From positions 1 to 26,316 of IMG/VR virus record IMGVR_UViG_3300010296_000068: 26,316 nt of DNA. One strand, 5' to 3'. The DNA comes from a virus. The notes under the pieces are model-generated. The model saw nothing but the letters and a program-made list of their open reading frames with translations, was not told the origin of the DNA and made no database searches. Both the position numbers and the translations under genes were made by a program. Shown here one piece after another: positions 6,820 to 26,243 of this stretch (positions are counted from its first letter, which is position 1; every line of letters begins with the position of its first letter).

Positions 6820-7207
6820 TACAGTCAACGGCTTCGCAAAAGCTGCCGGGCAAATCCACAACGGCGAAGGCTTGTTCAGCGATGCTGACACTGTGGCCCT
6901 GCGCCTGCGTCTGATTACTGAGGAGTTCCTAGAACTGACCGAGGCGATGCACAAGGCGCACCACAAGCCGACTAACGAGAACAAAGCACACGCCCTCAAG
7001 GAGATGTGTGATCTGCTGTACGTGACGCTGGGTGCAGGTGTCGTGTTCTTCAAGCCCGACGTGTGCATTGATGCGTACGCTGCCGTACACGACAACAACA
7101 TGACGAAGGTCACCGGAGCCGTCGACAAGGACAACGGCAAAGTCACGAAACCAAAAGACTATAAGCCGGTGGATCTGACCCCGCTGGTACGGGGAGATGC
7201 CGCATGA
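6812..7207 (+). CDS. MazG-like nucleotide pyrophosphohydrolase
   Basis: An all-alpha NTP pyrophosphohydrolase of about 131 residues. The metal-binding helix motif is RLITEEFLELTEAM (Glu-Glu-x-x-Glu), and the second motif is KEMCDLLYVTLG (Glu-x-x-Asp). A GADxxK-type sequence is not seen, but the later D-x-x-N-M-x-K in DNNMTKVTG is typical of the phage branch of the MazG/HisE superfamily. Possible roles are removing non-canonical nucleotides or tuning (p)ppGpp and NTP pools. The ATG at 6812 was chosen because GGGAGG lies about ten bases upstream; a GTG at 6788 would add eight residues. The stop overlaps the reductase start as ATGA, so the two genes are probably translationally coupled. Confidence 0.88.
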   Translation: MFDTVNGFAKAAGQIHNGEGLFSDADTVALRLRLITEEFLELTEAMHKAHHKPTNENKAHALKEMCDLLYVTLGAGVVFFKPDVCIDAYAAVHDNNMTKVTGAVDKDNGKVTKPKDYKPVDLTPLVRGDAA

Positions 7208-8868
7208 GCAAGCCAAACACCTACTTTCGTAACTCCTTCTCAGAAGACATCTTCAACCAGAAATACCGCGCTGATCCTAATGAGACATGGGCCGACCGCG
7301 TGGCGATTGTCGTCGAGGATGTATGCCGTGACCTGATGACAGCTGACGAGAAGGAGCAGCTGACCCAGTACGCCATCAACATGAAGGTGCTGTTCGGTGG
7401 TCGTTACATTTACTACGGCGGACGACCCAACAAGTTCTTCAACAACTGCTACCTTCTGAAAGCCGAAGAAGACTCTAGAGAGGACTGGGCGAATCTCTCG
7501 TGGAAATCCGAGAGCTGTTTGATGACGGGCGGGGGTATCGGGGTGGACTACTCCGTGTATCGACCAGCCGGGTCACCGATCGAGCGCACAGGTGGAACTG
7601 CTAGCGGCCCGATTCCAAAGATGACGATGATCAACGAGATCGGCCGACGTGTCATGCAAGGCGGATCACGACGCAGCGCCATCTATGCCAGCCTCAATCA
7701 CGCACACGGCGACGTCATGGACTTCTTGGTGGCGAAGGACTGGGAGAACATGCCCGTTCCCGGCACCGACAAGACACTGTGGGATCTGAAGCAGGACGAC
7801 TTCAACTGGCCAGCGCCACTCGACATGACAAACATCAGCGTCAACTACGACACCAAGTGGCTGATCGACTACTACAAGACCGGCGATCCTGGCCCTGTAT
7901 TCCGCAAGAACGTGGCCCAAGCGCTGCGAACCAGTGAGCCGGGATTCAGTTTCAACTTCTACGACAAAGAGAACGAGACGCTTCGCAATGCGTGCACAGA
8001 GGTGACGTCGAGCGAAGACTCGGATTGCTGCAATCTGAGCAGTGTCAACCTGAGTCGGATCGAAAGTTTGGAAGAACTGAAGGATGTCGTGCAGCTGACC
8101 ACCAAGTTTCTACTTTGTGGAACAGAGCGCGCAGACTTGCCCTACTTCAAAGTGTGGGAGACACGAGCTAAGACGCGCAGACTCGGCCTTGGCCTCATGG
8201 GAATCCACGAGTGGCTGATCCAGCGTGGTTACAAGTACGAAGTGACACCCGAGCTGCACCAGTGGCTGGGCGTTTGGAAAGGCGAGAGTGAGTCGACAGC
8301 GACCAGCTTTGCTGCCTACCTCGGTGTCAACAGGCCGTGGGGCGTACGCGCCATCGCTCCGACTGGCACCATCGGTATCCTGGCCGGCACGACAACAGGC
8401 ATCGAGCCAATCTTTGCGACAGCCTACAAGCGCCGCTACCTTGTTGGCGGTACTGAGTGGCGATACCAGTACGTGATCGACAGTGCTGCGCAGGAGATGA
8501 TCGACAAGTACGGTGTCGAGCCTGAGTCTGTTGAGTCAGCCCTTGATCTTGCCGCTGAGCCAGAGCGCCGAGTCAAGTTCCAAGCTGACATCCAAGACTA
8601 TGTCGACCAGTCCATCAGCTCGACCATTAACCTTCCTGCTTGGGGGACTGAGCTGAACAACGAGGATAGTGTCGATACCTATGTCGACCTGTTCGCACGC
8701 TATGCGCCACGACTGCGCGGAATGACGGTGTATGCCGACGGGTCGCGTGGTGGTCAGCCATTGACGAGCGTCCCCTACAGCGAGGCAAAGAAGTTCGAGG
8801 GCGAGACGTTCGTCGAAACCCACGACATTTGTGACATCAGCGGAACTGGTGGCTCATGCGGGATCTAA
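7204..8868 (+). CDS. nrdJ: class II (adenosylcobalamin-dependent) ribonucleotide reductase
   Basis: This protein reduces ribonucleotides to deoxyribonucleotides with a B12-generated thiyl radical. The reductase barrel motifs are present: Asn81-Cys82 (NNCYL), the phosphate-binding stretch MTGGGIGVDYS, Asn262-x-Cys264-x-Glu266 (NACTE, radical Cys and catalytic Asn and Glu), and a Cys275-Cys276 pair in CCNLSSVNL where the second redox Cys is expected. PTGTIGILAGTTTGIEP is the usual barrel strand motif. The C-terminus ends with Cys543 and Cys552, the shuttle pair that is re-reduced by a redoxin. At 554 residues it is shorter than Lactobacillus RTPR (about 740). No small-subunit gene is present and the length is compact, which supports class II. 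B12 dependence is inferred from family likeness, not directly visible. Confidence 0.9.
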   Translation: MSKPNTYFRNSFSEDIFNQKYRADPNETWADRVAIVVEDVCRDLMTADEKEQLTQYAINMKVLFGGRYIYYGGRPNKFFNNCYLLKAEEDSREDWANLSWKSESCLMTGGGIGVDYSVYRPAGSPIERTGGTASGPIPKMTMINEIGRRVMQGGSRRSAIYASLNHAHGDVMDFLVAKDWENMPVPGTDKTLWDLKQDDFNWPAPLDMTNISVNYDTKWLIDYYKTGDPGPVFRKNVAQALRTSEPGFSFNFYDKENETLRNACTEVTSSEDSDCCNLSSVNLSRIESLEELKDVVQLTTKFLLCGTERADLPYFKVWETRAKTRRLGLGLMGIHEWLIQRGYKYEVTPELHQWLGVWKGESESTATSFAAYLGVNRPWGVRAIAPTGTIGILAGTTTGIEPIFATAYKRRYLVGGTEWRYQYVIDSAAQEMIDKYGVEPESVESALDLAAEPERRVKFQADIQDYVDQSISSTINLPAWGTELNNEDSVDTYVDLFARYAPRLRGMTVYADGSRGGQPLTSVPYSEAKKFEGETFVETHDICDISGTGGSCGI

Positions 8869-11677: not shown

Positions 11678-12424
11678 ATGATGAAGAAACGGTTGAGTGA
11701 GCGCGGCCTTGCGCTCATCGCCTTCTACGAGGCGAGTACCTCGCTCCAAACCCGAGACGGTTACGTTTGGTATCCCGGCGGTTACGACAACATCCCAGAC
11801 AAGTACTTGAAAGTTTATGCGGACCCGATTGCAACGAAGCCGATCCCTACGGTGGGTTTCGGGACGACGACGTATGACGTCAAAGGCTTGGAGGTCGGCC
11901 AGGTCTACAGCCAGGCGGACGTCATCAAGATGTTCGAAACGACGATAGGCACCTACGAGAAGGCAGTGAACAAGCACGTCACCGTCGAGCTGAACCAGAA
12001 CGAGTTCGATGCGCTCGTGTCGTTTGTCTACAACGTGGGTGTCGGTGCGTTTAAGGACAGCACGCTGCTGCGTCTTCTCAACCGTGGCCAACGTGTGCTG
12101 GCAACCGAGCAGTTCTATCGATGGAACAAGGCCGGCGGCAAAGAGCACGAAGGCCTCAACAAGCGCCGTGCCAGTGAGGCTGAGCTGTTCTCGTCACCAG
12201 TAAGCAAACCACGTGCAGACATCACAGAGAGTCGGACGGTTCGAGCAGCCGGTGCGCTGGGTGTTGTCGGGACAGTCACAGCAGTTGCGCCTGTGATCGG
12301 TCCGTTGGAGCAGGCAGCTACGTTTGTCGAGAACCACCTGTGGGTGGCCGGCTTAGCGGTTGCTGCAGTGGCGGTCTACCTGATCGCTGTGCGGTTTGAC
12401 GATTGGCAGAAAGGACGCCGATGA
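11678..12424 (+). CDS. endolysin, GH24 lysozyme (T4-type) with hydrophobic C-terminus
   Basis: This protein cuts the glycan strands of peptidoglycan at lysis. The catalytic layout of the GH24 family is present: Glu18 in FYEAS, Asp49 in YADP and Thr58 in PTVGFGTT. About 22 extra residues lie between Glu and Asp compared with T4 lysozyme. Later landmarks are NQNEFDALVSFVYNVGVGAF and FYRWNKAGGKEHEGLNKRR, both typical. The last 60 residues are unusual: a moderately hydrophobic stretch (about 187-206) and a clear membrane-like segment (about 217-235) followed by a basic tail, which would anchor it at the membrane. No cleavable signal is seen at the N-terminus. It starts six bases after scaffold and its stop overlaps the following small gene region. 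Confidence 0.9.
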   Translation: MMKKRLSERGLALIAFYEASTSLQTRDGYVWYPGGYDNIPDKYLKVYADPIATKPIPTVGFGTTTYDVKGLEVGQVYSQADVIKMFETTIGTYEKAVNKHVTVELNQNEFDALVSFVYNVGVGAFKDSTLLRLLNRGQRVLATEQFYRWNKAGGKEHEGLNKRRASEAELFSSPVSKPRADITESRTVRAAGALGVVGTVTAVAPVIGPLEQAATFVENHLWVAGLAVAAVAVYLIAVRFDDWQKGRR

Positions 12425-12864: not shown

Positions 12865-13881
12865 ATGGCTAACGCTACTCCGAGCTATCTCGGTATTAAG
12901 AATGCAGGCACCTACTCCAGCCCTGCGGCGGATGAAAGCTCCGTCAACGCCACCCAGTTTGCAGCCAACAACGAGCTGTTTCTCAAGGTGTTCAGTGGCG
13001 AGGTCCAAGCTCGCTTCATGGCGCAGACCGTACTGCGCGACAAAACCCGTATCCGCACGATCCAGTCTGGTCGTTCGGCAGTGTTCAACGCAATCGGTAA
13101 GACGACTGCTGCGTACCACGTACCCGGCACGGAGATCACCGGCTCGAACATCAAGCAGGATGAGCGCATCATTCAAATTGATGACGTGCTGCTTGCGTCG
13201 ACGTTCATCAGCAACTTCAACGAAGCCATGAACCACTACGATGTTCGGTCCTCGTTCTCTCGCGAGATGGGTGACGCCCTTGCTCAGACCTACGACCGCA
13301 ACCTGTTTGCTGTCGCTGGTGCTGAAGCGCTGGCTCCATCTTCAGCGATTGCAGACCAAGGCGTTGCTGAGTCCATCACCATGGATGCGACCCCGACCTT
13401 CGCAGAACTGGTTGACCAGATCTACGTGGCGGCGCGCAAGCTCGACGAGAAGAACGTCCCTGAGTCTGACCGCTACGTCTACGTGTCGCCGACCGTATAC
13501 TACGGCCTGCTCGCACAGGATAAGATCCTCAACCGTGACTTCGTCGCGAACAACGGTGACTTCTCCCAGGGCACGCTGTTCAAGATTGCCGGTATGTCGG
13601 TCATCAAGACCAACAACATGCAGGCTGACCACAGCGCTACCTCGATCGACTTCCGCTCCAAGTACGACGCGGACATGTCGACGATGCAGGCTCTGATCAT
13701 GCATCCAGAAGCGCTTGGCACTGTCCAGCTTGGCTCGTTCGGTATGTCGACCGAGTCTGAGTACGACATCCGCCGCCAAGGTGTACTGATGGTCAGCAAG
13801 ATGGCAGTCGGCCACGGCGTGTTGCGCCCAGAATGTATCATCGGCATCAAGACCGACGGTGTGAACGACACCCTGTCCTAA
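12865..13881 (+). CDS. major capsid protein, T7 gp10-like
   Basis: The 338-residue shell protein (HK97 fold expected). It starts MANATPSYLGIKNAG. Landmarks in the T7 order are FSGEVQARFMAQTV, RTIQSGRSAVFNAIGKT, PGTEITGSNIKQDERIIQID, a central ELVDQIYVAARKLDEKNVPE segment and DRYVYVSPTVYY. It ends ECIIGIKTDGVNDTLS with a clean stop; no slippery site or downstream extension for a T7-like 10B form is seen. T7 gp10A is 345 residues. It has its own strong ribosome-binding site and is followed by a stem-loop. Confidence 0.97.
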   Translation: MANATPSYLGIKNAGTYSSPAADESSVNATQFAANNELFLKVFSGEVQARFMAQTVLRDKTRIRTIQSGRSAVFNAIGKTTAAYHVPGTEITGSNIKQDERIIQIDDVLLASTFISNFNEAMNHYDVRSSFSREMGDALAQTYDRNLFAVAGAEALAPSSAIADQGVAESITMDATPTFAELVDQIYVAARKLDEKNVPESDRYVYVSPTVYYGLLAQDKILNRDFVANNGDFSQGTLFKIAGMSVIKTNNMQADHSATSIDFRSKYDADMSTMQALIMHPEALGTVQLGSFGMSTESEYDIRRQGVLMVSKMAVGHGVLRPECIIGIKTDGVNDTLS

Positions 13882-13951: not shown

Positions 13952-14554
13952 ATGACCGATTTCGTGACGGCTACGACCAAGCTTCAAGCGGTCAACGTCA
14001 TGCTGACTAACATCGGTGAAACCCCGGTCGCTAGCTTAGAAGATGAGCAGGTCATTGACGCCGCAATGGCTGAGTCGATCCTCGACAGTGTGACGCGTGA
14101 GACTCAGACCCAGAGCTGGCACTGGAATACCGACATTCAAATGAAGCTCAAGCGCAACATCGAGAAGCGCATTGTGCTCGCACCCAACATCATGCGGATC
14201 GCGCCCAGCGGAGCTGACTCAATGCTCGCTGTCGTGCAGCGGGGCCGATACCTCTACAATCGCGGAAGCCACTCGTATGAGTTTGACCACGACATCACCT
14301 GCGACGTCACCATTGCGTTGCCGTTCGATGAGATGCCAGAGGTCGCACGCCGGTACGTGACTCTGCGGTCAGCGCGTATGTTCCAAGAGCGGATGATCAG
14401 CTCCGACCGGCTGAGCCAGATGGACCGCATCGACGAGTTCAAGGCTTACTCCGACATGCTGAACGAAGAGGCAAAGGTCGGCGGCTACAACGCGCTCAGC
14501 GGTAGCTTCAGCGCCCAGCGCATCATCAATCGTTACGGCTTCACAGGGAGCTAA
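13952..14554 (+). CDS. tail tubular protein A, T7 gp11-like
   Basis: A 200-residue adaptor ring protein that joins portal to tail nozzle. It starts MTDFVTATTKLQAVNVMLTN with the GETPV turn of this family, continues TQSWHWNTD, and has the ALPFDEMPEVARRYVTLRSARMF segment typical of gp11. The length matches T7 gp11 (196). The ATG follows GGAGACATG spacing (about eleven bases). The tail nozzle gene starts five bases after its stop. Confidence 0.95.
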   Translation: MTDFVTATTKLQAVNVMLTNIGETPVASLEDEQVIDAAMAESILDSVTRETQTQSWHWNTDIQMKLKRNIEKRIVLAPNIMRIAPSGADSMLAVVQRGRYLYNRGSHSYEFDHDITCDVTIALPFDEMPEVARRYVTLRSARMFQERMISSDRLSQMDRIDEFKAYSDMLNEEAKVGGYNALSGSFSAQRIINRYGFTGS

Positions 14555-14559
14555 TTGAC

Positions 14560-17500
14560 ATGCCACTGATCAGCGACACGATTGCCAACCTCATCGGAGG
14601 TGTAAGCCAGCAGGCCGAGAACCTGCGCTTCAGCAACACCGCCAACGAACTGGTGAACGCGTTTGCCTCGCCCGTCTCAGGACTACAGAAGCGACACGCC
14701 GCTGAGTTTGTCGGCGAGATGAACGCCTTTGGCAGCACGGCAGATCTGTCGTTTGGCGACAGGGCCGCTGTACATTGGATCGACCGTGACGCTGTCGAGC
14801 GATACGTCCTCGTTGCCGACAGCAATGGCATAAAGGCGTTCGACGCCGATACAGCTGACGCGATCGAAGTCGAGTATGTCGGCGGCACGCTGCCGAGCTA
14901 CCTAACGAGCGACGGTGACGGCGGTGTACTGACTGACTTTGCAAACGACCTACGGTTCATCACAGTAGCCGACACGACATTCATTCTGAACCGTAATGTT
15001 ACTGCTTCTGGCAGCACCGGGGCGGACTTCAACGACTATCATTTCGCAGCGTTCCCACAGCTTGAGTACGACGCTGACAGAGGCGGATCTAAAGGTGGTC
15101 GTAAGGTGGACAACTCCATTAAGACGAGCGGGTCAGCTGGATATCGCACCCTGTACTTTAGCCAAGGTAAGACCGACGGCACTGGCGACTTTGTGATTGG
15201 CTTCAGCAACGACGCTAACATTCTCATGGGTCTTGCCAAACAAGCCAGCAGTATTAGTACAGCAAGCACTGACCAGGTCGTGGCTACGTTTTTAAGCACT
15301 ACAGGCGGGGCGAATCCCAATACCTCTCTTACTAGCGCAACTGTCCATCAGTATCTGCGCCGCTATGAGGTCAGCCGCTTTGCAGATCACGCCGAGCGCT
15401 ACCCGTTCTACAGTAGTGGTGCTACGCAGGGCGACTTCGTCGCTGAGTTTGGACCGGTTCCTGCTATTCCTGGCAACGCTGGTAACAACCTTGGCTCCAT
15501 TTGGTATGAGCAGGCAACAGTACTTGCCACGACAGACGGGTACATGACGGACGACGACCTGCGAAAATGCTTTGTCGGGCCGTACTATGGCCTTGATGAC
15601 ATCACGTCGAGCGGCTCTACCTTGACCTTCCGTGTTGTACGCCCAGACGCTAAAGACTACAGTGGCTACAGCTCCACTGTTGACGGCCAGACACGCACAA
15701 TAGTGAACGACCTGCGCGTCAACAGCGTCGGCACTATTGAGATCAGCGACGGTGTTGGCGGCTACCGTGACATTACAGTAAGCCGCACTGACAGCACCGC
15801 CGACATTTACTTGCCGTTCAATGCAAACGCTACACTTGGAACCGACCCGCTACTCAATTACGTGTACTGGAATGCTGCGCCGGCTGGAACAACTTGGCCG
15901 TCCGCAACACTCGACATCATCAACGACCTGATCCAGATCGCGCACGACGGTGCGAACTACACAGTTGGTGTTACCGACGAAGAGCTGCGCATCCTCGTGG
16001 CTGACGGCGCAGGATTCAGCCTGACCAAGAACGCAGCTGGCACAGTGACGACCTTTGAAGATCTGCCACCAGAGGCAGCAAACGGACGAGTGATCAGCGT
16101 GGGCGGTGTCGGTGAAGGCGACGGAACTTACTATGTCATTGGTGTCGATGGTGAATACGTCGAGACCTATGCGGTGCCATACATCATCGATGACGACACA
16201 ATGCCTCACACGATTAAACGCAAGTTTCGCAACGACGGTACGCCGTACTTCGAGGTAGGCCCACACCAATACGCAGCACGTGTGGTCGGCGACGAAGAAT
16301 CAAACCGTGTGCCAAGCTTCATTGGCAACAAGATCAACGACATCTTTGTCTACAAGGGGCGTCTCGGTTTCTTGTCGGACGAGAACGTGATCATGTCGGG
16401 AGCCAATGAGTTCGGAACTACGGCCAACTTCTTCCGCAAGACGGTTATCCAGCTTCTTGATGACGACCGGATCGACATCGGTATGTCCACTGGCCGGATC
16501 GACATCCTGAAGAACGCAGTGTCATTTGCCGATACGCTGATGGTGATGTCGGACCGAGCGCAGTTCAAGCTCGTGTCCGGTACAGCACTGTCGCCCAACA
16601 CCGTATCGATTCAGCAGTCTACCGCGTTTGCTGTGTCGCCAACCGTGCAGCCGATCAACGCTGGCAACACGATCTACTTCGCTCAAGACAACCTTAACTT
16701 CACCACCGTCCGCGAGATGGTGGCCGAATACGACACCGACATCATCGAGACCAACGAGGTGACCGGCCAAGCTCCACGGTACATCCCAACTGGCGTGTTC
16801 AACATGGCGGTGAGTACGAAGAAGGAGCTGCTGTGTGCTGCTTCGTCAAACGAGCTGAACAGCATCTACGTCTACAAGTACTACAAAAACGAGGGCCAAC
16901 GGCTACAGAGCGCATGGTCAAAGTGGTCGTACAACACAGACACCAAGCTTGTCGGATTCAGCTTTATCGACGATTACCTTGTACAGATCCTGTCGATCAC
17001 GACACCTGACTACGTTGCCTCACTGGAACTGGCAGCTGGTGCGACTGCTCCGACGTATGGTACAATGAGTACGAGATCGTACATAGTACGGACAAAGATC
17101 GAAGAGATTACCAGTGTGTCGTCGACCGCGTTCCCTATCTTGCTCGACATGCGAGTAAATCGCAGTCAGTGTCCATCTGTTGTCGGACTGAGAACTGACG
17201 AGACCAACGCCGCCGTCACGGGCCTGCCTCTTGGCACAGACAGCACGACGATTGAGCTGCCTTATCGCACGACGTCGACGAGGCTTGTCGGGCTGCGATC
17301 TGGTGCTGACGACTACGGCACGGCAATGCCATTCATTGCGGCCTCGAACTTGAAGATCAATCCGCTGGCCGGTGGGACTGTCGCTGAGCTGACGACCCGG
17401 ACTCAGGCATTCTTAGCTGCACCATCACAGACGACAGCTGATGCGCTCAACGCGATCCTCGACACAACGGCTAGCAACACGTACCTGACTGTCTTCGGTC

Positions 17501-17943
17501 GCCACGACTACGAGCAAACAAATGCACTGACACAGACGCTGGATCTGACAGATCAGCCATCGTTTACAGTCGGTTTGACCTACGACTTTGAGTTCGACCT
17601 TTCGCCTATCTACTACAAGCCTGGTCAGACCACTGTCGGTCGAAGCGACAGCCGGCTGCAGCTTCGATACGCGACCGTGACCTATGACGACACGGCGGGG
17701 TTTGCCATCGATGTCGAGCCAAACGGGCGACAAAAGACAACGCGGCAGTTTAACAGCCTGACGTTCGGTGACAGCACTGACGCACTCGGGCAACTGTCGT
17801 TCGACACCGGCTCGTTCCGATTCCCGATCATGGCAAAGAACGACCGAGTGAGCATCAAGTTCCGCAACAGCCAGCCGTTCCCATCGACGCTGACCACGAT
17901 CGAGTGGGAAGGCTTCATTGCACCTAAGACGCTGCGGGGGTGA
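14560..17943 (+). CDS. tail tubular protein B (nozzle), T7 gp12-like, enlarged
   Basis: The N-terminus MPLISDTIANLIGGVSQQAE and SGLQKRHAAEF matches T7 gp12 (ISQSIKNLKGGISQQP, GLQKRPP), so the family call is firm. This protein builds the hexameric nozzle at the tip of the short tail. At 1127 residues it is about 330 longer than T7 gp12 (794). Extra material probably lies in beta-rich, Gly/Ser/Thr-rich segments (about residues 140-560), which may add surface domains to the nozzle. Conserved core motifs return later: FIGNKINDIFVYKGRLGFLSDENVIMSG (use only its first part for comparison) and TVREMVAEYDTD. It ends GFIAPKTLRG. The next gene overlaps or starts within a few bases. Confidence 0.94.
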   Translation: MPLISDTIANLIGGVSQQAENLRFSNTANELVNAFASPVSGLQKRHAAEFVGEMNAFGSTADLSFGDRAAVHWIDRDAVERYVLVADSNGIKAFDADTADAIEVEYVGGTLPSYLTSDGDGGVLTDFANDLRFITVADTTFILNRNVTASGSTGADFNDYHFAAFPQLEYDADRGGSKGGRKVDNSIKTSGSAGYRTLYFSQGKTDGTGDFVIGFSNDANILMGLAKQASSISTASTDQVVATFLSTTGGANPNTSLTSATVHQYLRRYEVSRFADHAERYPFYSSGATQGDFVAEFGPVPAIPGNAGNNLGSIWYEQATVLATTDGYMTDDDLRKCFVGPYYGLDDITSSGSTLTFRVVRPDAKDYSGYSSTVDGQTRTIVNDLRVNSVGTIEISDGVGGYRDITVSRTDSTADIYLPFNANATLGTDPLLNYVYWNAAPAGTTWPSATLDIINDLIQIAHDGANYTVGVTDEELRILVADGAGFSLTKNAAGTVTTFEDLPPEAANGRVISVGGVGEGDGTYYVIGVDGEYVETYAVPYIIDDDTMPHTIKRKFRNDGTPYFEVGPHQYAARVVGDEESNRVPSFIGNKINDIFVYKGRLGFLSDENVIMSGANEFGTTANFFRKTVIQLLDDDRIDIGMSTGRIDILKNAVSFADTLMVMSDRAQFKLVSGTALSPNTVSIQQSTAFAVSPTVQPINAGNTIYFAQDNLNFTTVREMVAEYDTDIIETNEVTGQAPRYIPTGVFNMAVSTKKELLCAASSNELNSIYVYKYYKNEGQRLQSAWSKWSYNTDTKLVGFSFIDDYLVQILSITTPDYVASLELAAGATAPTYGTMSTRSYIVRTKIEEITSVSSTAFPILLDMRVNRSQCPSVVGLRTDETNAAVTGLPLGTDSTTIELPYRTTSTRLVGLRSGADDYGTAMPFIAASNLKINPLAGGTVAELTTRTQAFLAAPSQTTADALNAILDTTASNTYLTVFGRHDYEQTNALTQTLDLTDQPSFTVGLTYDFEFDLSPIYYKPGQTTVGRSDSRLQLRYATVTYDDTAGFAIDVEPNGRQKTTRQFNSLTFGDSTDALGQLSFDTGSFRFPIMAKNDRVSIKFRNSQPFPSTLTTIEWEGFIAPKTLRG

Positions 17944-17947
17944 TGGG

Positions 17948-18415
17948 GTGACGATCACGGTGACGATGGCCGACCATCACCACATAGAACACGTAGCGCA
18001 CAACTTACGAGAGGCAGACAAACGTGAGGCATGCCGCATCACTGACAGTAACGACGCTATACGAGCAGTGGTCGAGAGTGCTCGTAATTCTCGGTTTACA
18101 TTGGTCGGCTTGGAGTCTGGCACGACGCCTGTGGCAGTTGCCGGGGTCGCGGATTCTAGTGCTGTGGGGATCGGAATCCCTTGGCTGGTCGGTACGGACC
18201 GGATCAGCGAAAAGCCTGTGCAGTTTTTGCGAAAGGCTAAGTCCGTTCTCGAGCTGATGTTCGACGAAAGCGGCTACGACATCTTCTACAACGTCGTCGA
18301 TGTCGAGAACACTGTGCACCAACAATGGCTCAAGTGGGTCGGCGCATCGTTCGCACCGTCGCCAATCAAGATCAACGGCTTCGATTTCTTTGAATTTACC
18401 ATCAGGAGACAATAG
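17948..18415 (+). CDS. internal virion protein / gp13-like (DUF2833, acyltransferase-like fold)
   Basis: A 155-residue protein in the T7 gene 13 position. Family features are the helix READKREACRI, the GTTPVAVAGVAD strand-turn where T7 gp13 has FPLAIGG, IPWLVGTDRIS (T7 CWFVTSDQVWR), and the helix FLRKAKSVLELMFD (T7 KAKRKFRKLIMEY). It then has YNVVDVENTVHQQWLKWVGASF (compare NYVWVGNTSHIRFLKTIGAVF). The fold of this group is thought to be acetyltransferase-like; gp13 is involved in T7 virion assembly. The GTG at 17948 is used because it gives the first beta strand TITVTMAD; ATG at 17966 is an alternative, and a TTG at 17918 overlaps the nozzle gene. Confidence 0.85.
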   Translation: MTITVTMADHHHIEHVAHNLREADKREACRITDSNDAIRAVVESARNSRFTLVGLESGTTPVAVAGVADSSAVGIGIPWLVGTDRISEKPVQFLRKAKSVLELMFDESGYDIFYNVVDVENTVHQQWLKWVGASFAPSPIKINGFDFFEFTIRRQ

Positions 18416-19087
18416 ATGTGTACTGCCGCCATGGGCCTCATCGGTCCCGTGATGAACGCTGGGCTGAGCATTGCCCAGGCTAACGTACAACGACAGGCGA
18501 TCTACGAGCGCGCCGCTGAACAGCAGCGCCAGTACGATGCCAACAAGCAGCTGGCCGGCGAGGCATTCGACATCGCTCAGCAGCAGATCGACAAGCAGAC
18601 GGTTGAGCAGGTTCGGGAGACGCAGATGGCCGCGTTCGACCAGACGATGCAAGCACGTGACGTCATGGCCCAGACACGCGCAATGAACGCGTCGGCGGGT
18701 CGGACTGGTCGAAGCGTGACAGAGACTTACGGCGCGATCAGCCAAGTCAGTAACCGAAACCTCGGTCGTCTTGCACACCGTCGCGCAATGCTTCTCGAGT
18801 ACAACAATGATGCAAAGACGCAGGCGGCTTACGACTACAGAGCGCGTGTCGCGAGTGTACCGCAAGGACGCGTCAGTCCAGCTGAGCTAGCAGCTGTAAA
18901 CCTTACCGCACTTGGCGGACTGATTAGCTCCTTCAGCTCGTTCACAAAGACGATGCAAAGCAACCAGATGATCAACGCTCAAATGAGCTACCAGCAGCGC
19001 AGTTTCGATCAGAGCATGCAGTTCGGTCAGGCGCAGATGAACTTCTTTGACCAGAGACACAGCTATCTGATGGGGCAATATCGATAA
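18416..19087 (+). CDS. internal virion protein, T7 gp14-like
   Basis: A 223-residue protein starting MCTAAMGLIGPVMNAG, like T7 gp14 (MC-x-AA followed by a hydrophobic start). The rest is a long, Gln/Ala-rich helical body (about residues 25-130). T7 gp14 is ejected first and forms a pore in the outer membrane. The start follows GGAGACAATAG at the end of the gp13-like gene, so the pair is coupled. Its TAA overlaps the next start by one base. Confidence 0.9.
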   Translation: MCTAAMGLIGPVMNAGLSIAQANVQRQAIYERAAEQQRQYDANKQLAGEAFDIAQQQIDKQTVEQVRETQMAAFDQTMQARDVMAQTRAMNASAGRTGRSVTETYGAISQVSNRNLGRLAHRRAMLLEYNNDAKTQAAYDYRARVASVPQGRVSPAELAAVNLTALGGLISSFSSFTKTMQSNQMINAQMSYQQRSFDQSMQFGQAQMNFFDQRHSYLMGQYR

Positions 19088-22000
19088 TGGTGGAATACAT
19101 CCGGCCAGTGCGGCCTAACGCAGCCCCGACAAAGATGATCGACAGTTACTACCGGCCGCTCCTCGACAACAGAGAGAGCCAAGCACTGTCAAAACTAGCA
19201 AGCGCCATCGGCAACCTACGCGGTCCTATTCAAGACCTTGCAAACACAGCTGTGCAGGCACGCCGTAACCAACTGCAGATGATGAAGATGGAGCAGAACC
19301 TGCAGCTGCAAGAGCAGGAGAACGCCTTCAAGCTGTACAAGATGGAGCAGGACTTCGCGCTGACTCAGGCGCGTGACAACTACGCCGACACAATGGAAGC
19401 TTTCAAAGCTGTCAACGACGACATCAGCCAGCAGATCCAGCTCGACCAGCTGCGGATGGAGCAAGGCCTGCCTGTCTACGGCACAGATGTGTTTGTCGGG
19501 ACAAGCGCTGGCAAGGTGACGATGGCCCACGAAGAGGCTATCCGTAACAAGCCACTCGATGATGAGCTGTACGGTATCCTGAGTAGCGCAGCTGCACAGA
19601 CAGGCCTCGAGGTCCGTGTGTTCAGCGGTGGTCAGCCAGGGATTGACGAGGGTGGCCAGCGCACAGGCACCCAGCGCCACGACCACGGTAACGCAGCGGA
19701 CGTGCATCTGATTGACCAAGCAACGGGCAAGATCATTCCGGTCGACGGCAGTGACCCCCGCGCCATCAAGTTCGCCCAGGTTGCACGCGGTCTAGGTATT
19801 GTCGGCATCGGCGGCGGCGAGGGATACATGGGTGGTAACGCTCTGCACCTCGACACTGTCGGCACAGCCAAGGGCGGTGGCAACTACTGGGGCAAAAAAG
19901 GTGGCACGCCCTACGCGTGGATCCCAGAGCTGTTCAACAGCAACATGGCCGATAACATCAAGGAATATAGCGCAGCGGAATCCGTTCAGTACACGATGGC
20001 GATGAACGCCAAGCGCACGTCACTGCTGAACCAAGTGCTGGCTGACCGTGGCATCGGTGAAGAGAACCGCTCGCGTATTATGGAAGCCGTCTCACGCGAC
20101 AACGCATTTGCCCTAGAGAAGGCAATGATCCTTGCTGAAGGAGCGGACCGCGCTAACCAGATGGCACAGTACGAAGCCTCGCGTGACATTACCGATCAAG
20201 CGCTAGCTGAGAGCTACAAGAACATGAGCGACAGCGCTCTGTTAGGTATCAGTACGGATGACTTCCTCGACAGCTTAGCTAGCCAGTTTGCAGAAGCTGG
20301 TGGCAAAGAAGGCTTCGATCAGGGCATCATCGCCTCAGTAAACTCAGCAGACGCTCTGATGCAGACAAGCGCGTTCACTACGTTTGCAGCAGAACGAGGG
20401 AAAGCTTTTGCAGAGAGCAAGCGTGCCTTTGCAGCAAGCAGCGCGATAAACAATGTCGCTGAGTTCCAAGCTGGATCTCCCGAGGCAGACGCTGAAGTGT
20501 TGGCACAGGTCTACCGTGAAGAGGTAGAAAAGACTGGCCTAGCTCCAGAAGAGATTGCATCGACGTTTGTCAGCAACGTCGAGATGGCGCAGGGACAGGC
20601 AGCAGCGTCTGGCGCAACCGTTGCTAACATCGAGAACGCAGCAAACCTCACAGCCGCGCTGGATGCTTTGTATCAAGCAAACGCGTTTGTAGGTGTCGAT
20701 GATGCAATGGCAGATCGCATTGCTAGTCTCGTTAAGGCTGACTCCGACAACCGTGTCGGTAACACACTGAAGGCGTTTGAGCTGACACTGGATCAGACTG
20801 AAGACCCAGAGCAAATCAAGCAGTTCACACTTTCAATGATGCAAACGATGCAACAAAGCGAAGGCTTGATGAGCATCGACGAGCAAGAAGACCTGTTGAA
20901 CGCTACGAAGAAGGCGGCAACGCGTTACAACTCGGCTCAGTCGAAGATCGACAGCAGCCCTTACGAACCTGTCCGCGACACGAAGGGAACAGCTACGGTC
21001 ACCAACGGCACTCTGTACTACAACGAAGAGTACCGCATGACCTCAAGCGAGGTGGCTACACAGAAGACCAACAAGCAGAACGCACTGATCCGTGAGCAGA
21101 TCTTGCCGGCCCTCGATGCAATCACTGCTGGCGATCAAAACGGACACAACGCGTTGGCTGCAGCGATCACACTTGCTAAGCGGAATGGCTTCGGTGAAGG
21201 TCTGCTAGCGCAGGTGTTTGCTGAGACGGTGCGCGACGGTGAGGTCACGACAGACACGATCGCTACCGTCGAGCGTCTTGTCAGTTACAGCAAGCAGTTT
21301 GGCGCGCCATATGTAGACTTTGCTGGTAACCCCGAGCTGCAGATCCTAGCGCTTTCGCCTCAGAGCTTCTCAGTGGCACAGCGCCAGTTCGGCAATATGC
21401 TGATTAGCGGCGCAATCACCAGTGATCATATCGCTACTGTCGAGCAGGCAATCGGCTCCTTGGGCGTAAACGATGCGCGATTCGAAGCAGTGCTAGCGAT
21501 TAGCTCTAACCTCGACACCATCCTTGCCAAGCCAGATAACCCAGACGCAATCCAAAAGCAGATCGAAAAGCTGGCTGCACGGTCCGCGCCACGCGAGTTG
21601 TATGGTGCTTTGGGCGACAGCTTGCTAGGTGGCGGGACAGCGACCCGTGCGTTTGCCGGTGAAATCACTGTAGATCAGATGATGAAGGGCGTGAACGTGA
21701 TCGGTCTGTTCGCCGAGAAGGTCAGCGTTAAGAGCACCGACAACATCCGCGACCTGACAATGGCCACGTACGGTCTCGACAAAGACAGCATGAAAGGCGC
21801 TGCAGCTCTTGGAGCACGTATGCATGCCGACCTGTTCGGCGCAGCTGGCGTAGAGCTGAAGAACATCGAGCAGAACGCTGCCGGCATCGACATAACAATC
21901 AATAGTGACGGCTTTAGCCTGTCTCGCGCTGACGGTGAGGCAATGCTCTACCGAGACAGCTTCGGTAATCTTGCACCTCTTGGGCGGTTCCGTACTCGAG

Positions 22001-22446
22001 TTGTTGGTGGTGCAATACCGTTGCAGGCTGTCAACTTTAGCCGGCCAAACAACACGGCGATGCAGGGCAGGACGACACACTTTCTTGTCGAAGGTCTGGG
22101 TGGCCAAACGTGGGACATCCGCAACGTGCGCGGGGCCATGGCAGTCACTGCTACGTTTGCTGATGGCACGTCACAGGACTTTCCAGTCGACGCTGATGAC
22201 TTCCTGTCGATCGATACGCGCAATCGCGACTTCGACGATAGCCACGGGTCAATCGCATACATGCTGCCGTACGAGGACAAGTACAGCGGTGCCACGAGCA
22301 TCGAGCTGCGCATGGATGGCGACATCGGGTACGCCCCTCCGAACAGCACTGACTTCCAGTCAGCGTTCTTTCACACAGCGACCGTCGTGCCAGCGTGGAA
22401 GCTGGGCCAGGCTGATGAACAGCTGACTATCTTGGGAGGTGACTGA
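19087..22446 (+). CDS. internal virion protein (gp15 position) with M15-like zinc peptidase domain
   Basis: A 1119-residue protein in the place of T7 gp15 (747). Residues about 55-110 form a Gln/Lys-rich coiled coil. Residues about 160-290 resemble a D-Ala-D-Ala (M15A) peptidase: a FSGGQPG turn, a TGTQRHDHGNAADVHL motif giving His198 and Asp205, and ALHLDTVG giving His254, the expected zinc ligands. Such enzymes cut peptide cross-bridges in peptidoglycan. The rest is helical and repeat-rich, consistent with the ejected core and trans-periplasmic tube. T7 gp15 has no such domain; in T7 the wall-cutting enzyme is part of gp16. Peptidase call: motif-level, family inference. Confidence 0.85.
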   Translation: MVEYIRPVRPNAAPTKMIDSYYRPLLDNRESQALSKLASAIGNLRGPIQDLANTAVQARRNQLQMMKMEQNLQLQEQENAFKLYKMEQDFALTQARDNYADTMEAFKAVNDDISQQIQLDQLRMEQGLPVYGTDVFVGTSAGKVTMAHEEAIRNKPLDDELYGILSSAAAQTGLEVRVFSGGQPGIDEGGQRTGTQRHDHGNAADVHLIDQATGKIIPVDGSDPRAIKFAQVARGLGIVGIGGGEGYMGGNALHLDTVGTAKGGGNYWGKKGGTPYAWIPELFNSNMADNIKEYSAAESVQYTMAMNAKRTSLLNQVLADRGIGEENRSRIMEAVSRDNAFALEKAMILAEGADRANQMAQYEASRDITDQALAESYKNMSDSALLGISTDDFLDSLASQFAEAGGKEGFDQGIIASVNSADALMQTSAFTTFAAERGKAFAESKRAFAASSAINNVAEFQAGSPEADAEVLAQVYREEVEKTGLAPEEIASTFVSNVEMAQGQAAASGATVANIENAANLTAALDALYQANAFVGVDDAMADRIASLVKADSDNRVGNTLKAFELTLDQTEDPEQIKQFTLSMMQTMQQSEGLMSIDEQEDLLNATKKAATRYNSAQSKIDSSPYEPVRDTKGTATVTNGTLYYNEEYRMTSSEVATQKTNKQNALIREQILPALDAITAGDQNGHNALAAAITLAKRNGFGEGLLAQVFAETVRDGEVTTDTIATVERLVSYSKQFGAPYVDFAGNPELQILALSPQSFSVAQRQFGNMLISGAITSDHIATVEQAIGSLGVNDARFEAVLAISSNLDTILAKPDNPDAIQKQIEKLAARSAPRELYGALGDSLLGGGTATRAFAGEITVDQMMKGVNVIGLFAEKVSVKSTDNIRDLTMATYGLDKDSMKGAAALGARMHADLFGAAGVELKNIEQNAAGIDITINSDGFSLSRADGEAMLYRDSFGNLAPLGRFRTRVVGGAIPLQAVNFSRPNNTAMQGRTTHFLVEGLGGQTWDIRNVRGAMAVTATFADGTSQDFPVDADDFLSIDTRNRDFDDSHGSIAYMLPYEDKYSGATSIELRMDGDIGYAPPNSTDFQSAFFHTATVVPAWKLGQADEQLTILGGD

Positions 22447-22448
22447 TA

Positions 22449-25400
22449 GTGGTAGACATTGAGAACTACACAGAGGACACAGCGGTCGTAACGTCCGCTC
22501 CAGAGTACATGCCGTTCGCGGCAGGGTACGGCACTGGAGTCCGGTACGGCACAACAGGTGACCTCATGCGCTTCTTTGCTGAGCCGAGCTTCATTGATCA
22601 GGCTGGTGCGGCGCTGACTGGTGACCGGGAGGCGTACGCTGCAAACATTAGAGAGAAGGCGCTGTTCCGCGAGCTGACAGCAAAGCGAGCAATCAACCGC
22701 GTCTTCGACATTGCGCAGCCCTACGACGGCGATCGTGTGGACGAGCTGCTCAAAACGTACAGCGTCCCGATGGGCGACATGACCGACAACCTGCACAACG
22801 CGGCTCAGTTTCTCGCTGACGACCAGCTGGAGACGTACGCTGAGTTCCTTGGTCGTCGAGCAAAAGACATGCAGCAGGTCGGCCCTGGTGCTAACCTGAC
22901 GGCTGCTATCGCTGACCCAGCAACTCTGTCGACCTACCTGATCGGCGGTGCCGGCATTCTAGCGACTTCGACGCGAGCAAGCGCAGCGGTCAAGGCAGGC
23001 CAAAGCGTGAACCGCGTGCAGCAGTTCGCAGCAGCGCGGCCGTTCATGTTCGGTGCGGCCGGTGAGGCAGCGCTTGATGCAGGCATCCAAGCGGCGGCGG
23101 GGACAGCTGACACGACAGGCACACGCGAGTTCGACGTGACGTCACTTGCACTCGCCGCGCTGATCGGTGGCGGATTCAACAAAGTGCTGACCGACGGCAT
23201 GCCAAAGATCGACATGAACTGGCGACCATCGCCGGAACAAAAAGCAATGGCCGAGGCGTCCGATCTCGTGACGTCGACAACACAGAATGTACAGAAGCGC
23301 GCTGCGGTGCAGATCGTAGATGGCAAGATCAAAGGCGCACCGACGCCAGGAAGAGTTGCCGGCGGTTCTGTCAAGATAGCCGGCGTCGACGTGCGTCGGC
23401 TATTCTCCCCGCTTGTTCGCATCTACACAAGCGACATCCCGGCGATCCGGCAGGCAGCTGAGATGTTGGGCGGTGTGCAGACGATGCTGGGCCGCAAGGT
23501 GCAGGATGTCGGCGACATTGAACTCGACCAGATCCGTATGGCCAACATTGAGTCGGCGCAGATGACTCCTGTCCTGTCTGACGTGAACAACGCGTTCCGC
23601 ACTGTGGGCGTCAATGACTCGTGGATGGCTGAATATGCCATGACTCAATATGTACGACGCCGTACGCGTGGCATCGCGCCGGGGGACATCGACATGGATG
23701 AGCTGCTTGGCGACTTGGTTGCGGCCAAGGATTACGCACGTATCGGTAACGCGCTTGAGAACCTGTACAAGCAGCACGGTGCGCAGATGAAGAAGCTTGC
23801 CGACAACATGACCGAGTCAAAGGTACGCGGTGCACGGTACGTCGACAACGCAGAAGAGGGAAAGTACCTGCAGCGTGCGTACAGTATGATTAACTTTCCT
23901 CGCATCTGGAAGATCCTTGGCCCAACAAACATCGGCCGAATGTTCGGCGGTGCGATTGCTGACGACCAGCTTACGGACATCATGAAGGTGTTGGCTGAGC
24001 GGATCGCAAGCGGAAAGAAAGCTACCAGCTTTTACAGCGTGAAGAAGTCACAGGCAGCTGCAAACAAAGCACGCGGCAAGAAAGGCACCGTTGTTGAACA
24101 AGGTACGACAACGTCCGGCCTGACAGCTGATGAGATCCTCGCGACGTTCCCGAAAGAGATGGCAGCAGAGGCTCGTAAGTTTTCGATGAAACTCGGTGAA
24201 GGTATGTCGAAGCGAATCTACGAGCGCATGACCAACAGCTTCATGACGCAGATGGATGCTGCACAGATCAACGATCTGACTGACGAAGCGATCGAGCGCA
24301 TGCTGGCTGATTTGAAGTCAGGCGGGAAGCTTGATGAAGAGACCGACGAGTTCATGCAGGCACTGAAAGACTTTGTGTACCGCAAGCCGACGACAAAGAA
24401 GGAGTCAGACATGGGGCCGCTGAATCGGCGGATCCGTCTGAACGAGCTGCACAAGATGCGCTGGTCTGACATGGTGAGCGAGAAGACGAAGAAACCGTTG
24501 AGCGCAGATGAGCTTGCTCAGATGAAAGAAGACTACGCCAAAGCGATGGGCCGCTCACGACGCTCGAAAGCTGACCAAGGCGCTAGCTTTGAGGACTTCC
24601 TCAACAACGGCTACCAGCAACTGATGGATGGCTACTACCACCAGTATGCCAGTCAGATGGCTCTGGCTAAGCGCGGCATCAACAAGGAAGGCGGCGCTAC
24701 TGTCGATGACTTGATTGCCCTGGCAACAAAAGAAGTCGAGGATCTGAAGGGCCGGGGTGTCTCGCAGAAGAGACAGAACCGAGCCGAGCAAGATCTCAAC
24801 GCGTTCATCTACCTTATGCACACAGCAAACGGACGCGGGATCGAGTTTGCAAAAAGCAAGATGCGGAACACCGACAATGCCCTCGAGGCCTCGTTAGCGC
24901 AGCATACAGTCGGCGGCAAGGCGGTCGGAATCTTCCGTAACATCTCGACAAGTGTGCACCTCGGCATGGTTGCATTCGCGCAGGCCTCGGAGGCTGGCCA
25001 GCTGATCGGCACGGTCGGGGCGCGCATCCACGACATCGACCGCACCACACGCGTCCTGCGAGAGATCGGTAAAGTCAAAGACGGCAGCGCACCGAGCACG
25101 CTGACTCGCGACATGATGCGTATCGGCCTGATGAACGAAGGCGCAATGCGCAAGTTCGAGGGCATGGATTACGGCGGTCGCTTTATGTACCAAGAGGGTG
25201 ATGACCTCATCACGCGTACCTACAACGCTACCAGTAACTGGCGCGATTTCATGGGCTGGATCAACGGGATCAAGCCTATCACCATGATGATGCGCGTCGT
25301 TGCTATCGGACGTGCACACGACAGATTGTACGCCGGTGCGACAGGCACGAAGGGTGTAGGAAACGCGTTCAGTCCGGCTGAGCTGAAGACGTACCTGACA

Positions 25401-26243
25401 CTTAACGAAGAGGACGTCGAAAAGGTATACGAGGCCATTCGGAAGTTCGCGATAGTGAACAAGAAGACTGGCGGCGTTGAGACACTGCGGCCCGACCTGT
25501 GGCACACGCTGGGGCCAGACTACGCAGCGCTGGCGGCACAGCTTGACGAAGGTCTGTTCCGGTTCAGTCACACGATTGTGCAGCAATCAGGGCGCGGGTA
25601 TGCCCCGATCTTCATGCAAGGCGGTCTAGGGTCGACGCTGTTCCAGTTTATGAGCTACGCGTCGAACTCGTTCGAAAAGCAGTTCATCCCGACCCGCCTG
25701 CTGGCAGAGCGTGGCGACACGGGCGCGGCAGCTACTCGCGTCAGTGGTGCTGTGCTTGGATCACTGCTTGGGTACAGCACACGCCTGTACGTGCGCAGCC
25801 TCGGTATGTCGGAAGAGAAGCGCAGTAAGTATCTCGAAGAGAACCTAACGCTCGACAAAACGATTACCGGGACGATCGCGTACCTGCCGCAGCTGAGCGG
25901 ACCGATGATCGCTGGATCGATTGCGTACGACATTCTGCGCGGGTCAGTCACAGGCGACAGTACTGCAATCCGCCGAGGATTCCCGACAATCCCGTCGATT
26001 TCCAGTGCGCAGGACATCCTGTCGACAGGCAGCTCGATTGGTCGTCTGTTCAATCCTGACAAGGACATCACAGAAGCGCAGCTGCACAAGCTCGCGAACT
26101 ACGGAACGCTGGGCTTAGCGAACACGCCGCTAGTCACAGTACCGCGCAACGTCCTGGCCGGCATGCTCGGCGAGAACCGAAACTCCTCCCTTAACCCAGC
26201 GCCACCGAGGAGTGAGCGCGAAGAAACTCAACAAGATCAATAA
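22449..26243 (+). CDS. internal virion protein, T7 gp16-like core protein
   Basis: A 1264-residue protein, close to T7 gp16 (1318), in the last core-gene position. The start is a GTG at 22449 behind GGGAGGTGA (22434-22442). An N-terminal lytic transglycosylase domain, which T7 gp16 has, is not obvious: no Glu-Ser plus GLMQ-type motif is seen in the first 200 residues. Residues about 155-260 hold alternating hydrophobic, Ala/Gly-rich segments that could contact membranes. The remainder is long, charged and helical, with a Lys-rich part around residues 510-700. A hydrophobic stretch near 1130-1150 (GSLLGYSTRLYVRS) and an Ile/Leu-rich segment (about 1175-1190) follow. Role: forms the internal core and is ejected into the cell with gp14 and gp15 analogues. 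Confidence 0.88.
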   Translation: MVDIENYTEDTAVVTSAPEYMPFAAGYGTGVRYGTTGDLMRFFAEPSFIDQAGAALTGDREAYAANIREKALFRELTAKRAINRVFDIAQPYDGDRVDELLKTYSVPMGDMTDNLHNAAQFLADDQLETYAEFLGRRAKDMQQVGPGANLTAAIADPATLSTYLIGGAGILATSTRASAAVKAGQSVNRVQQFAAARPFMFGAAGEAALDAGIQAAAGTADTTGTREFDVTSLALAALIGGGFNKVLTDGMPKIDMNWRPSPEQKAMAEASDLVTSTTQNVQKRAAVQIVDGKIKGAPTPGRVAGGSVKIAGVDVRRLFSPLVRIYTSDIPAIRQAAEMLGGVQTMLGRKVQDVGDIELDQIRMANIESAQMTPVLSDVNNAFRTVGVNDSWMAEYAMTQYVRRRTRGIAPGDIDMDELLGDLVAAKDYARIGNALENLYKQHGAQMKKLADNMTESKVRGARYVDNAEEGKYLQRAYSMINFPRIWKILGPTNIGRMFGGAIADDQLTDIMKVLAERIASGKKATSFYSVKKSQAAANKARGKKGTVVEQGTTTSGLTADEILATFPKEMAAEARKFSMKLGEGMSKRIYERMTNSFMTQMDAAQINDLTDEAIERMLADLKSGGKLDEETDEFMQALKDFVYRKPTTKKESDMGPLNRRIRLNELHKMRWSDMVSEKTKKPLSADELAQMKEDYAKAMGRSRRSKADQGASFEDFLNNGYQQLMDGYYHQYASQMALAKRGINKEGGATVDDLIALATKEVEDLKGRGVSQKRQNRAEQDLNAFIYLMHTANGRGIEFAKSKMRNTDNALEASLAQHTVGGKAVGIFRNISTSVHLGMVAFAQASEAGQLIGTVGARIHDIDRTTRVLREIGKVKDGSAPSTLTRDMMRIGLMNEGAMRKFEGMDYGGRFMYQEGDDLITRTYNATSNWRDFMGWINGIKPITMMMRVVAIGRAHDRLYAGATGTKGVGNAFSPAELKTYLTLNEEDVEKVYEAIRKFAIVNKKTGGVETLRPDLWHTLGPDYAALAAQLDEGLFRFSHTIVQQSGRGYAPIFMQGGLGSTLFQFMSYASNSFEKQFIPTRLLAERGDTGAAATRVSGAVLGSLLGYSTRLYVRSLGMSEEKRSKYLEENLTLDKTITGTIAYLPQLSGPMIAGSIAYDILRGSVTGDSTAIRRGFPTIPSISSAQDILSTGSSIGRLFNPDKDITEAQLHKLANYGTLGLANTPLVTVPRNVLAGMLGENRNSSLNPAPPRSEREETQQDQ

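Follow-up and report, generated by a model that had tools for sequence, protein, structure and literature searches.

In phage T7, the lytic transglycosylase of gp16 is proposed to open murein locally during ejection; a review of ejection proteins reports that in K1E and K1-5 the protein at the gp15 position has lysozyme activity, and it describes a swapping of the hydrolase between gp16 and gp15; gp15-like proteins are customarily matched through size and synteny (PMC8954989). Here we analyze the gp15-position protein of a T7-like structural operon in IMG/VR virus record IMGVR_UViG_3300010296_000068, positions 1 to 26,316 (the window, 26,316 nucleotides). Its open reading frame lies between gp14-like and gp16-like genes, which is the position of the T7 gp15 family. 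Since the whole-length protein had no family match in Pfam, PHROG and NCBIfam scans, "gp15" is used here as a label of position. We consider it likely that a LAS metallopeptidase-like domain inserted in this protein (residues about 152-290) acts as a murein peptidase during ejection. The features on which this proposal rests are the following.

19087..22446, + strand: gp15-position internal (ejection) protein, 1119 amino acids, with the peptidase-like domain (open reading frame, translation, gp14-like and gp16-like neighbours)
19540..19956, + strand: LAS/M15-like domain, residues 152-290 (related loci, alignments, fold model, Foldseek)
19624..19635, + strand: S180-G-G-Q183, at the place of SGYRS in M15_2/M15_3 proteins (invariant in 46 of 46 members; hhalign register)
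19675..19701, + strand: R197-H198-D-H-G-N-A-A-D205, with the proposed first two metal ligands H198 and D205 (both invariant)
19846..19854, + strand: H254-L-D256, with H254 as the proposed third ligand (H254 invariant)

Conservation of the peptidase-like domain

The translation contains both H198-D-H-G-N-A-A-D205 and H254-L-D256, and the reading frame, its coordinates and the two motifs are exactly where a first-pass annotation of this DNA had placed them. Relatives of residues 152-290 are encoded at 55 IMG/VR loci, in Rhizobium and Agrobacterium phage records, and at 16 loci in bacterial genome assemblies. The latter include three Patescibacteria-type assemblies and, judging by the genus names, presumably belong mostly to Rhizobiales and Rhodobacterales. 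Loci L071, L073 and L075 come from assemblies that bear the labels Patescibacteria, Kaiserbacteria and Gracilibacteria; two of the domain copies there lie within proteins of 1600-1900 amino acids.

H198, D205 and H254 were invariant in an alignment of 35 members and again in one of 46 members, as were S180-G-G-Q183, R197, D199, H200, G201, A203, G237 and G240. The copy in Agrobacterium phage OLIVR1, which lies outside the 46-member alignment, reads RHNDGDAAD; D199 and H200 are altered but H198, D205 and H254 are kept, which singles out these three as the candidate ligands. They are probably zinc ligands. D256, which the first-pass annotation had included in its ligand pattern, does not share this status: it is present in this phage, in L010-L012 and in a few others, is Gly in most relatives, and is not a ligand or catalytic residue of the family as a whole. 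In the M15_2/M15_3 comparison sets, drawn from alphaproteobacterial genomes, H-x-D is invariant. Identity to the relative L010 is 72% in the domain and 44% in the remainder of the protein. Among 5000 shuffles of the 1119-residue protein, H-x6-D arose in 55%, H-x6-D-x(25-70)-H-x-[DE] in 3.7% and HxxGxxxD..H in 1.9%; the bare H-x6-D...H motif is weak evidence and insignificant alone. It is conservation, rather than the bare motif, that raises H198, D205 and H254 above chance.

Predicted fold and profile searches

The AlphaFold2 model of this phage's own domain (35 sequences) reached a predicted local distance difference test score (pLDDT) of 85.7 and a predicted template modelling score (pTM) of 0.84. 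In a Foldseek search of the PDB, its top seven matches were MepA, VanX, Ply500, Sonic hedgehog, T5 endolysin, LysECD7 and the S. albus DD-peptidase, with MepA the best (E 4.7e-3, prob 0.97); unrelated folds begin only after these seven, with E values from about 0.5 upward. A second model, made for a central family member (46 sequences, pLDDT 91.2), had Sonic hedgehog, Indian hedgehog, T5 endolysin, Ply500 and LysB4 in its top eight, and Hedgehog domains were its closest solved folds. All of the top seven and top eight matches are members of the LAS superfamily (M15, MepA, Hedgehog), and an M15/LAS-type fold in the gp15-position protein, as suggested by the first-pass annotation, is therefore borne out by both predictions. 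The strength of the Foldseek evidence from the PDB lies in this agreement of ranks, with no single match below 1e-3. Foldseek against BFVD gave 16 matches below 1e-3, several of them to phage proteins annotated as Peptidase M15. Taken as modelled, the domain has a LAS-like fold but stands outside the curated M15 families.

No single-sequence PDB match was found for the 1119-residue protein or its domain, profiles PF08291 and PF13539 had no match anywhere in the window, and by curated profile cut-offs (PF08291, PF13539, PF05951 and NCBIfam) the domain falls outside M15. When the 35 members were scanned against Pfam, the one match was to an unrelated family. The phrog_465 endolysin family matched 4 of the 35 members weakly and was rejected as an identity for the domain. 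A PDB profile search aligned the R197-D205 region to SRHLHGLAVD of LysECD7 (8q2g). An M15 profile match, proposed as a check on the earlier claim, was thus not obtained in the Pfam and NCBIfam scans, but hhalign placed the M15_2/M15_3 sets in register over all three ligands, the SGGQ/SGYRS place and the G..H...G..W tail. Its statistics were modest, with low probabilities of 4.6%, 3.0% and 7.7% (P 0.0087, 0.015 and 0.0045). In shuffled-column controls, the real score was 23.5 for A2 against a mean of 13.6 and a maximum of 26.1 of 60, and 22.9 for A3 against a maximum of 18.0. By itself, the hhalign comparison would not settle homology to M15.

Protein contexts of the relatives

Relatives of the domain were found in several kinds of phage proteins. 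On a distant T7-like contig (L040, 7272-10094), the gp15-position protein joins the peptidase-like domain to a GH24 Phage_lysozyme domain, whose relatives include GH24 domains in the tape measure proteins of Ruegeria, Caulobacter and Brevundimonas phages. Rhizobium phage RHph_TM21B has a tail protein with Phage_lysozyme2 and the peptidase-like domain, Rhizobium phage RHph_I4 has a weak match to the domain in a tape measure protein, and in N4-like OLIVR1 it is part of a structural protein encoded next to the gene for the virion RNA polymerase. A Roseovarius prophage region (L066:5992-6627) has the domain as a standalone gene of 212 amino acids in an ejection cassette of the P22 type. This gene lies between that of a DNA-ejection protein (phrog_598, E 3.4e-27) and, with one gene intervening, that of a DNA-transfer protein (phrog_770, E 5.5e-16). 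In L014, L016, L020, L038 and L039, the domain is followed after about 1.6-2 kb by a relative of this DNA-transfer protein. These contexts are sites occupied by virion-associated lysins.

Gene order and the gp16-like protein

The neighbours of 19087-22446 form a T7-like structural operon of capsid, tube, nozzle, gp13-, gp14- and gp16-like genes:

11678..12424, + strand: GH24 phage lysozyme, own gene (Phage_lysozyme E 1.3e-35)
12865-13881: capsid gene
13952-14554: tube gene
14560..17943, + strand: nozzle, gp12-like (tail tubular protein B; Phage_nozzle E 3.1e-165)
17918..18415, + strand: internal virion protein, gp13-like (phrog_308 E 1.2e-33)
18416..19087, + strand: internal virion protein, gp14-like, 223 amino acids (T7_gp14 profile E 1.2e-4, under the curated cut-off; synteny)
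22449..26243, + strand: ejection protein, gp16-like, 1264 amino acids (phrog_342 E 1.1e-36)

The alignment of the gp16-like protein to phrog_342 (1235 profile positions) begins only at position 301, and no SLT (lytic transglycosylase) match at E<1 was found in this protein. The usual hydrolase of the ejection machine is therefore undetected in it. In a Pfam scan of five T7-like phages besides the present one, SLT was found in gp16 of one only, and a strict either-or between gp15 and gp16 enzymes is therefore unsupported. Rhizobium phage TRX32-1 has the T7 arrangement, with SLT in gp16 and a 674-residue gp15-position protein without a detected enzyme.

The GH24 lysozyme is likely the lysis enzyme. 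Its gene encodes hydrophobic C-terminal segments and is placed between the scaffold-position and capsid genes, an odd site for a lysis gene. With 1127 residues, the nozzle protein exceeds the 794 positions of its Pfam model, and the extra sequence is internal. Upstream of the structural genes, 7204-8868 encodes a ribonucleotide reductase-like protein, judged by translation alone.

Possible roles of the domain

A role as murein peptidase in ejection is held most likely because the gp16-like protein lacks a detectable SLT domain and relatives of the domain occur at sites of virion-associated lysins. The domain is, on this reasoning, most likely a virion-associated peptidoglycan hydrolase, and we infer that it is packaged in the virion, binds zinc and is catalytic, and likewise which bond it cuts and when it acts. 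After adsorption, the internal proteins would exit the head and the gp15-like protein would build a periplasmic tunnel. The domain may then cut a stem-peptide or cross-link bond, opening the local murein mesh and letting the tunnel pass. It would thereby replace the transglycosylase domain of T7 gp16, which is undetectable here.

A number of observations weigh against this role. No Pfam, PHROG or NCBIfam family reached significance for the domain, and scans of three trimmed segments gave no match at E up to 10. The PDB profile search placed xylanases above M15 entries; these alignments lie in the C-terminal half and miss the H198/D205 region, and a xylanase relation was dismissed as chance. 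Foldseek E-values against the PDB all exceed 1e-3 (best about 0.005), with TM-scores of about 0.35-0.48. Classic M15 enzymes (VanX, T5 endolysin, Ply500) use as their base an acidic residue that precedes the last ligand by three positions. Here this residue is N251, and elsewhere in the 35-member alignment the position is G, S or another residue with no conserved acid, so that by this mark too the domain differs from M15. A close relative, L003 (8001-9896), is 57% identical in the N-terminus and has lost all three ligands, with about 200 additional residues at the peptidase-like region, which is replaced or expanded. This sequence comparison suggests that the activity is dispensable or replaced in the L003 lineage. 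Because the phage also encodes the GH24 lysozyme, the earlier proposal that peptide cross-links are cut instead of glycan strands is plausible rather than established. The L003 insert shows an FHTEPF motif and what may be degenerate copies in tandem, and a search for relatives of this insert recovered only L003 itself.

The main rival grants the domain the LAS fold and metal site but no catalysis; it would serve in binding or assembly and tie the tunnel to murein or to a partner protein. The Hedgehog domains nearest to the central member favor it, since to our knowledge Hedgehog is not a known peptidase, and so do the missing acid before H254 and the ligand-free L003. We nevertheless regard a binding module as unlikely. 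The three ligands and SGGQ/RHDHG are fully conserved over dozens of loci and several kinds of phage protein, relatives are fused to muramidase domains, which points to an enzyme, and the M15_2/M15_3 sets equally have no acid at that position.

A further possibility is a peptidase whose substrates are phage or host proteins rather than murein, for instance internal proteins that it processes or host periplasmic proteins. The fold leaves the substrate undefined and the PDB fold matches are modest. However, the bacterial and phage enzymes among the matches have murein peptides or D-Ala-D-Ala as substrates, and the family co-occurs with lysozyme domains in proteins of the tail and of the ejection apparatus, which makes a protein substrate improbable. 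That the motif arose by chance in a helical tunnel protein lacking any metal site, a reading to which the shuffling result and the lack of a family database match would lend some support, is very improbable given the invariance in 46 homologs, the higher identity of the domain than of its flanks and the retrieval of the LAS fold by both models.

Returning to the murein peptidase, it is quite possible, if short of probable, that the domain founds an unnamed family of LAS metallopeptidases for DNA delivery, mainly in alphaproteobacterial phages. Such a cassette would be exchanged among the ejection operons of podoviruses, as its own gene or joined to gp15, structural proteins of N4-like phages, tape measure proteins and tail proteins of myoviruses, and its catalytic apparatus would be unlike that of classic M15.

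Implications

A 2018 review describes endopeptidase domains in virion-associated lysins as almost confined to phages that infect Gram-positive bacteria (PMC6116005). If our proposal is true, a peptidase-type murein hydrolase in a T7-like ejection apparatus broadens this picture, and both the hydrolase-bearing ejection protein and the bond that is cut would be freely exchanged. It would also raise the question of whether ejection depends on cross-linking or on glycan of the host wall. Since the family is invisible to Pfam, PHROGs and NCBIfam, routine annotation will miss it.

Comparison with known systems

Among the systems considered here, Atu_ph02 and Atu_ph03, Alfirin and Nostoc phage NMeng1 (Atuphduovirus) are alike in having a large protein between the gp14-like and gp16-like genes. 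Their gp15-position proteins are annotated "cell wall hydrolyse" or "endolysin". In Agrobacterium phage Atu_ph03, this protein has a true Peptidase_M15_3 domain (E 2.6e-19) plus Hydrolase_2, and the gp16-like protein matches phrog_342 from position 169 only. The M15 domain of Atu_ph03 is canonical (SGYRS, SQHTTGNAAD) and paired with Hydrolase_2, whereas the domain described here is divergent (SGGQ/RHDHG) and alone. The first-pass annotation correctly noted the lack of such an enzyme in T7 gp15, but for proteins at the gp15 position enzyme domains do have precedents. Like gp35 of K1E and K1-5, the protein studied here places a (here probable) peptidoglycan hydrolase at the gp15 rather than the gp16 position; gp35 differs in being a lysozyme, as opposed to the metallopeptidase fold here. 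The transglycosylase domain of T7 gp16 shares the proposed role of local murein opening in ejection, yet it cuts glycan, is located on gp16 and has an unrelated fold.

The M15 endolysins (T5 2mxz, Ply500 2vo9, LysECD7 8q2g) and VanX/MepA are fold neighbours with the same H-x6-D...H spacing. They differ in that they are not within ejection proteins, their base residue lacks a counterpart in the present domain, and sequence similarity to them is under family thresholds. The N-terminal domain of Hedgehog is of the same fold class and has the same zinc-ligand pattern, but it is an animal signalling domain with no functional link. The arrangement in this phage is a further modular swap of a kind already precedented, made with a domain family that is absent from the searched libraries.

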